From Thermoplasmata archaeon (lineage in GTDB: Archaea > Thermoplasmatota > Thermoplasmata > Lutacidiplasmatales > UBA184): a stretch of DNA of 32,445 bases. The stretch is from contig JASHTB010000025.1 in NCBI GenBank assembly GCA_030040775.1, positions 1-32,445 of the forward strand. Direction: 5' to 3'. Below are positions 29,285 through 30,491 of this stretch, piece after piece. The notes below the pieces were generated by a model that searched no databases, was not told the DNA's origin, and saw nothing but the letters and a program-made list of their open reading frames with translations. Position 1 is the stretch's first letter. Each line of letters starts with the position of its first letter. The position numbers and the translations under genes are program-made.

Positions 29285-30289
29285 ATGGCGATACGGGTCG
29301 GCATCAATGGATTCGGGCGCATTGGTCGGAACATCTTCCGCGCGGCGTTGGGCGACCCGGAAATCGAAGTGGTCGCGGTCAACGACATCACCGACGCAAG
29401 AACGCTCGCTCACTTGCTGAAGTATGACTCGATTCTCGGCAACCTTCCGAACAAGATCGCGCACACGGACGATACGATTTCGGTTGATGGCAAGAGCATC
29501 AAGGTCTTCAAAGTCAAGGATCCGGCGGAGCTGGACTGGTCGTCGGTCGGGGCGTCCATCGTGGTGGAGTCCACCGGGCTGTTCACAAAGGGCTCCGAGG
29601 CGCGCAGGCACCTTCGGGGCTCCGTGAAGAAGGTCCTGATCTCGGCGCCCGCCACGGACCCCGACACGACCCTTGTTCTCGGCGTGAACGACAACACGTA
29701 CGACCCGGTCAAGCATCACGTCGTTTCGAACGCGTCCTGCACGACGAATTGCCTCGCGCCGGTGGCCAAAGTGATTCTGGACAGCTTCGGGATCACCGCC
29801 GGGATGATGACCACGGCCCACTCCTACACGAACGATCAGAGGTTGCTCGACCTGCCGCACAAGGATCTGCGCCGCGCGCGCGCCGCAGCGCTGTCCATGA
29901 TCCCCACCACCACCGGCGCCGCCAAGGCACTGCACCTGGTCATGCCGGAACTGAAAGGCAAGCTCGACGGGTACTCCCTGCGAGTGCCCACACCGAACGT
30001 CAGCCTAGTGGATCTGACGGTCATCACGGGCCGGCCGGTCACTGTAGAAGAGGTCAATGCGGCGTTCAAGCGGGCGGCCGAGGGCCCCATGGAGGGGATT
30101 CTGGGCTACACCGAGGAGGAGCTCGTTTCCGTGGACTTTCGGGGCGACTCGCGGTCCGCCATCGTCGACGCCTGTTCCACGCGGGTCGTGGGCTCGAACT
30201 GCCTCAAGGTCCTAGCGTGGTACGACAACGAGTGGGGCTACTCGTGTCGCTGTCGCGACCTGATCAAGCTCTTCGCCGCGCGGCTGTAG
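29285..30289 (+). CDS. gapA: Bacterial-type (class I) glyceraldehyde-3-phosphate dehydrogenase
   Basis: MAIRVGINGFGRIGRNIFRAAL, LAHLLKYDSILG, SNASCTTNCLAPVAKVI, TTAHSYTNDQRLLDLPHKDLRRARAAALSMIPTTTGAAKA, WYDNEWGYSCR. Confidence 0.96.
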   Translation: MAIRVGINGFGRIGRNIFRAALGDPEIEVVAVNDITDARTLAHLLKYDSILGNLPNKIAHTDDTISVDGKSIKVFKVKDPAELDWSSVGASIVVESTGLFTKGSEARRHLRGSVKKVLISAPATDPDTTLVLGVNDNTYDPVKHHVVSNASCTTNCLAPVAKVILDSFGITAGMMTTAHSYTNDQRLLDLPHKDLRRARAAALSMIPTTTGAAKALHLVMPELKGKLDGYSLRVPTPNVSLVDLTVITGRPVTVEEVNAAFKRAAEGPMEGILGYTEEELVSVDFRGDSRSAIVDACSTRVVGSNCLKVLAWYDNEWGYSCRCRDLIKLFAARL

Positions 30290-30335
30290 GTGAGGTTCTT
30301 CGGTCCCGAGCCCCACTCGACCAGGTGAGGTCGCG

Positions 30336-30491
30336 GCCGTCCAGGCGATCCGTCAGGAGTCGATCGTCGTGCCTGACAACATCGACGCGATACGCTCGAT
30401 GTTCGACCTCGCGCAGGATGCAGCCGAGTCGGTCGCAAAGATCGACCGTTTTCTCGGACTTCGATCCTCGTTGTCCCCGATTCGAGCGTGA
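30336..30491 (+). pseudogene. 3'-terminal remnant of an archaeal class II GAPDH gene
   Basis: Open frame AVQAIRQESIVVPDNIDAIRSMFDLAQDAAESVAKIDRFLGLRSSLSPIRA-stop. It matches the archaeal class II GAPDH C-terminus as I recall it from Pyrococcus ([39 protein letters not shown]). No upstream body of the gene is present. Confidence 0.82.

Follow-up and report, generated by a model that had tools for sequence, protein, structure and literature searches.

Apparent in-situ displacement of an archaeal class II GAPDH gene by an acidobacterial-like class I gene in a Thermoplasmata genus

How does an archaeon come to carry a bacterial-type GAPDH gene directly in front of what reads like the tail end of the archaeal one? 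The question is raised by a contig from an uncultured Thermoplasmata archaeon. The window, that is, the whole stretch of DNA analysed (32,445 nucleotides), is one entire contig (G000:C46) of an archaeal MAG that is 82% complete and in which an archaeal EF-2 over its curated cut-off was found by profile search. A preliminary description had pointed out a class I gapA ending at 30289 and, behind it, a class II-like frame running to a TGA at 30491, and had proposed that a bacterial gap replaced the native gene in situ. The coordinates and the alignment hold, and the locus is laid out as follows.

26974-27975, minus strand: thiL-like kinase of the AIR-synthase family (Pfam AIRS), the conserved left flank, with its neighbour order kept in the genus
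27986-29176, minus strand: acyl-CoA dehydrogenase (ACAD; Pfam Acyl-CoA_dh), divergent from gap; its gap-proximal ~430 nt form an apparent recombination tract common to genome G032
29177-29284, unstranded: divergent promoter region of 108 nt, 82-90% identical in the three class I genomes by intergenic alignment
29248-29254, ~37 nt before the gap ATG: TATA-like CTTAAAG, found by alignment
29285-30289, plus strand: class I (bacterial-type) GAPDH, gapI (gapA), of acidobacterial affinity, assigned from TIGR01534 (431.6 bits), its motifs, its nearest relative and a tree
30290-30323, plus strand: 3' junction segment between two 9-nt direct repeats, AGGTGAGGT, located by repeat search
30324-30461, plus strand: 3' stump of the native archaeal class II GAPDH, positions 288-332 of 333, from profile matches and the genus alignment
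30462-30491, plus strand: read-through tail that follows the missing native stop and closes with TGA; in relatives the stop codon lies no more than about 5 codons from this point
30586-32445, plus strand: probable secreted or surface protein with an Ig-like domain (Pfam Ig_7), truncated by the contig end

The upstream gene, gapI, is complete and encodes 334 amino acids. Its score against TIGR01534 (GAPDH-I) exceeds the curated cut-off of 367.2 bits, which places it in class I. The catalytic Cys lies in SCTTNC at residue 151 and the catalytic His in HSYT at 179, while the sequence motif VND at 32 provides the NAD-type Asp after beta-2. Because these motifs and the NAD-type dinucleotide site are present, and phosphoglycerate kinase (pgk) is found in the same genome, gapI has most likely taken over from the class II enzyme the interconversion of GAP and 1,3-BPG both ways. 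In the draft genomes it stands without a class II partner, so it probably works in both directions, although this enzymatic role and the presumed NAD linkage are read from sequence. Bacterial class I proteins start too much alike (M-A-V-K/R-V-G-I-N-G-F-G) for a hybrid 5' end, with class II codons fused to class I, to be told apart.

The frame behind gapI is a different matter. It lies in another reading frame, is open from 30294 to the TGA at 30489-30491, and reads ...GEVAAVQAIRQESIVVPDNIDAIRSMFDLAQDAAESVAKIDRFLGLRSSLSPIRA*. Profile searches align it with positions 292-339 of the 343 in NF003251 (type II GAPDH; E = 3.7e-12) and with TIGR01546 (E = 2.6e-10), and it matches the C-termini of solved archaeal class II GAPDHs, namely 2yyy (1.1e-7), 2czc, 1cf2 and 1b7g. 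This similarity is far beyond chance, and it bears out the earlier identification of the frame as the C-terminus of archaeal class II GAPDH. The class II models were matched and the class I models were not, so an origin by duplication of gapA is rejected, as the preliminary description had argued. Its estimate of some 50 surviving codons was right in that a remnant exists and too generous in length, as recognisable homology covers about 40-46 codons (30324 or 30342 to 30461). With only positions 288-332 of 333 left, instead of a full-length protein with nucleotide-binding and catalytic domains, the stump fails as a functional class II GAPDH.

Several features suggest that it is no longer maintained. 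The 120-nt core shares 66-78% of its bases with the class II copies found in the genus. It is altered at three sites otherwise invariant across the 30 intact copies compared (H4R, E12D and T34I, in the numbering of the 40-residue core), whereas any intact copy has at most one change at such invariant sites (n = 30). Although the dN of the stump is raised, it is exceeded in two intact copies (G021 and G018), and the dS of the stump is high as well. No ATG, GTG or TTG was found before its conserved QAIRQES block, and the frame runs several codons beyond the native 'LGL' end, the native stop having been lost. These changes, the missing start codon and the read-through of the native stop fit a loss of constraint, and the stump looks like a dead remnant, a decaying pseudogene fragment. 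Relaxed selection here rests on few substitutions, the stretch being short. The possibility of an independent small ORF, which the preliminary description had named as a potential refutation alongside a lack of similarity, was rejected: besides the missing start, no relative was found to keep the stump as a separate ORF.

The junction itself carries the 9-nt direct repeats, at 30288-30296 (the gapI stop) and 30323-30331 (the stump start). Approximately 2% of shuffles of the 75-nt junction region contain such a repeat, and it is weak evidence, only a hint, on the joining event. A recognisable stump is kept only in G000 among the three genomes with class I; at the locus in the other two, G003 and G032, none was found by tblastn at 1e-3 or by DNA search. 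A possible 20-nt match between the G003 flank and the junction (shuffle p 0.003-0.007) was seen and is not relied on.

What stood at this place before can be read from related genomes. In genus members read with enough flank, a full-length class II gap is divergent from ACAD, followed by thiL, GDH and a phosphoribosyltransferase gene, just as had been predicted for relatives. Two sister genomes, G013 (L058) and G019 (L059), have 1.5-3 kb of extra DNA between the class II gap and ACAD. In G000, G003 and G032 it is the class I gene that occupies this very place beside ACAD, at a distance of ~108 nt from the start of ACAD. A box of the type CTTTA(A/T) is seen in most class II relatives where the class I gene has its TATA-like box, and from this kept position the acquired gapI appears to be driven by the native promoter. 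The promoter region is also unusually similar among the three class I genomes, in comparison with a mean identity of 57% in other pairs. Of the synteny proposed earlier (thiL, ACAD, gap, surface protein), the thiL-ACAD-gap side stands and the surface protein does not. The 3' side of gap varies between genomes, even among class II carriers, so the surface-protein gene from 30586 onward lies outside the conserved synteny and is uninformative.

The distribution of the two classes points in the same direction. Class I GAPDH occurs in 3 of 78 genus genomes (G000, G003 and G032), and a class II gap over its cut-off in 61, none of which has class I. The two classes are thus mutually exclusive across the 78, and genomes with neither are mostly incomplete. 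A search for another class II gap, suggested in the preliminary description, found none in G000 (82% complete), and no intact copy was found in G003, which gave no class II match, or in G032, which has two degenerate fragments elsewhere; as the three class I MAGs are 73-90% complete, absence of class II is not absolute.

The two G032 fragments (L043, G032:C160, 2019-2440; L044, G032:C162, 8503-8658) each adjoin an aldo/keto reductase gene. They were considered as pieces of the displaced gene and rejected, given these neighbours and their closer similarity to second class II copies in G008 and G015. Decay seems to have affected another class II gene in G032 too, unlinked to the first. Such second copies occur in some genus members (L067 in G008:C68, L068 in G015:C260, and G089:C48) and may be a paralogue or contamination; those of G008 and G015 are ~61% identical to the syntenic gene of G030.

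Class I genes are also found further afield. In the more distant G041, G051 and G054, class I is present and no class II was found. Their proteins are 54-57% identical to gapI and branch elsewhere in the tree, with different bacterial lineages. These loci (L036, L032 and L035, respectively), from other families of the class, are apparently independent displacements.

The likely source of gapI is a soil bacterium related to Acidobacteriota. Its closest protein in the named genome collection, at 78% identity, comes from the Acidobacteria MAG palsa_347, while the next best reaches 67%. That homologue sits in a gap-pgk-tpi operon (the translations of the two neighbours gave their names). The tree unites the three archaeal proteins with 100% support and joins this clade to palsa_347, again at 100%, among acidobacterial sequences. 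The GC3 of the archaeal genes is 0.84-0.85, like that of host genes, as against 0.72 in the palsa_347 relative; because of this host-like composition, the transfer was probably not very recent.

Taken together, the gene is phylogenetically foreign, it occupies the resident's position beside conserved left neighbours, and no intact copy of the resident was found. In-situ replacement, as first proposed, is supported by distribution, synteny and donor affinity. We consider it very probable that an acidobacterial-like class I gap displaced the class II gene in situ by xenologous replacement and then spread in the genus, the stump being a decaying remnant. An ancestral species of the genus would have taken up the gene from an Acidobacteriota-like bacterium, and insertion would have been at the native class II position, next to the resident ACAD, with the same start point and the native promoter. 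The class II gene would then have been largely removed, leaving in G000 its last ~45 codons behind the new stop codon. Homologous recombination, for which ACAD and the promoter region would have served as left arm, may subsequently have carried the new locus from one species of the genus to another. Both the order of these events and the crossover mechanism are ones that we infer.

The evidence for this last step comes from divergence. Among G000, G003 and G032, dS is 0.24-0.34 for gapI, in comparison with 0.55-0.81 for ACAD and 0.55-0.69 for EF-2 (the EF-2 pairs G003-G017, G000-G022 and G022-G033 being left out as mis-framed). Synonymous divergence of gapI is thus about 40-60% of the ACAD and EF-2 values, while the dS ratio of native class II gap to ACAD is 0.75-1.26. 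Between G000 and G032, ACAD identity is 0.90 in the 430 nt nearest gap and 0.81 beyond, the largest such step among 435 pairs; the step between G000 and G003 ranks second. G003 groups with G017, G031 and G020 on a data set that includes EF-2, and with G032 and G000 on ACAD; backbone support in the species tree is moderate (77 for the G000/G032/G014 group). Similarly, its GDH, thiL and phosphoribosyltransferase genes are nearest to those of G031, and its ACAD is nearest to those of G032 and G000.

These patterns suggest that the gene probably crossed between domains once and was then passed around the genus by homologous recombination in the ACAD-promoter flank. This spread is less certain than the displacement itself. 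The replacement was therefore probably not private to the G000 lineage, although its in-situ nature stands. On a reading that we favour with some reserve, the locus holds two very distant 'alleles', class II and class I gap, and the foreign one has been spreading between species through the ACAD-promoter flank, giving species-level displacements of different age with scars variously erased.

Other histories could have produced parts of this picture. For example, gapI may have landed between the native promoter and the class II gene, so that both coexisted until the class II gene decayed from its 5' end. The stump directly behind gapI on the same strand, the gapI start at the native start position, and the repeat bracketing the junction, as small deletion or insertion events can leave, are all consistent with this order, and haloarchaea do hold both GAPDH classes in one genome (PMC10817205). 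However, no genome of the 78 in the genus has both genes, the repeat is expected in a small share of shuffles, and event order is unreadable from three surviving copies; insertion before deletion is a possibility that we hold only tentatively. Three independent acquisitions at the same slot, from related acidobacterial donors, would account for the differing 3' flanks and for G003 not being close to G000 and G032 on data including EF-2. They are nevertheless very unlikely, as the three proteins form a fully supported clade apart from any sampled bacterium, the promoter regions are so alike, and G000 and G032 have an ACAD tract in common.

An assembly or binning artefact, in which a bacterial or otherwise foreign contig was joined to an archaeal one, has to be weighed because all genomes are draft MAGs and the stump junction is known from one contig of one genome. 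In addition, the gapI of G003 had to be read from two contigs, which are identical at 387 of 390 bases where they overlap. But the junction of ACAD, promoter and gapI is present in each of three genomes whose sequences have diverged, and the GC3 of gapI is host-like, unlike that of the donor relative, which makes an artefact hardly credible. Finally, the stump could have been kept for a purpose, such as providing gapI with a 3' UTR and a terminator. Inside it, at 30428-30456, is a stem-loop that has a T-run, part of which is a TTT codon at a site occupied by GCN in many relatives. Yet the two terminator-like sites found compare with 1.0 +/- 1.2 expected from shuffles, and the other two gapI genomes do without a stump, so a retained function seems improbable.

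In-situ xenologous displacement is a known process. It was reportedly described in operons by Omelchenko, Makarova, Wolf, Rogozin and Koonin in 2003 (Genome Biol 4:R55), with the acquired gene taking the resident's place and the neighbours left unchanged. The acquired gap likewise sits at the resident's chromosomal place beside unchanged neighbours; unlike in those operons, the exchange was between two GAPDH classes that resemble each other little in sequence, part of the lost gene is still present, and tracts in the flank suggest that the locus later moved from species to species.

Haloarchaea offer another parallel, as their class I GAPDH (gapI) was acquired from bacteria, and Haloferax and Haloarcula use gapI for glycolysis while keeping gapII for gluconeogenesis (PMC10817205). 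Both cases involve a bacterial class I GAPDH reaching an archaeon by horizontal transfer. Here, in contrast, no intact class II was found, the donor is Acidobacteriota-like, and the host belongs to another, uncultured lineage. Xenolog gene displacement with repeated transfer in one group has also been inferred from synteny and trees for the fungal fructose transporter FSY1 (PMC3688497). The two resemble each other in repeated within-group transfer of one gene and in displacement read from synteny and trees, but FSY1 is a eukaryotic transporter replaced by orthologues.

A literature search found no description of the present gap displacement, and the case is new and unusually legible. For core enzymes, the usual evidence of xenologous displacement is a gene tree and nothing more. 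At this locus one can see, side by side, the position, the apparently kept promoter, the likely donor phylum, relatives that still show the ancestral arrangement, what is left of the displaced gene, and a recombination tract, which opens the mechanism to testing at three points: capture of the promoter, spread by way of the flank, and disappearance of the native gene. Beyond the haloarchaea, it adds an example in which class I GAPDH appears alone, without archaeal class II, so that glycolysis and gluconeogenesis would both have to rely on one presumably NAD-linked enzyme. If the foreign allele has indeed been spreading, one rare inter-domain transfer would have become several species-level displacements.

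Elsewhere in the window, an ORF at 524-2032 (plus strand) contains repeated units (SEITLTV..FATKTSPFPLSYA); it may be the reverse strand of a gene for a repeat-rich surface protein.
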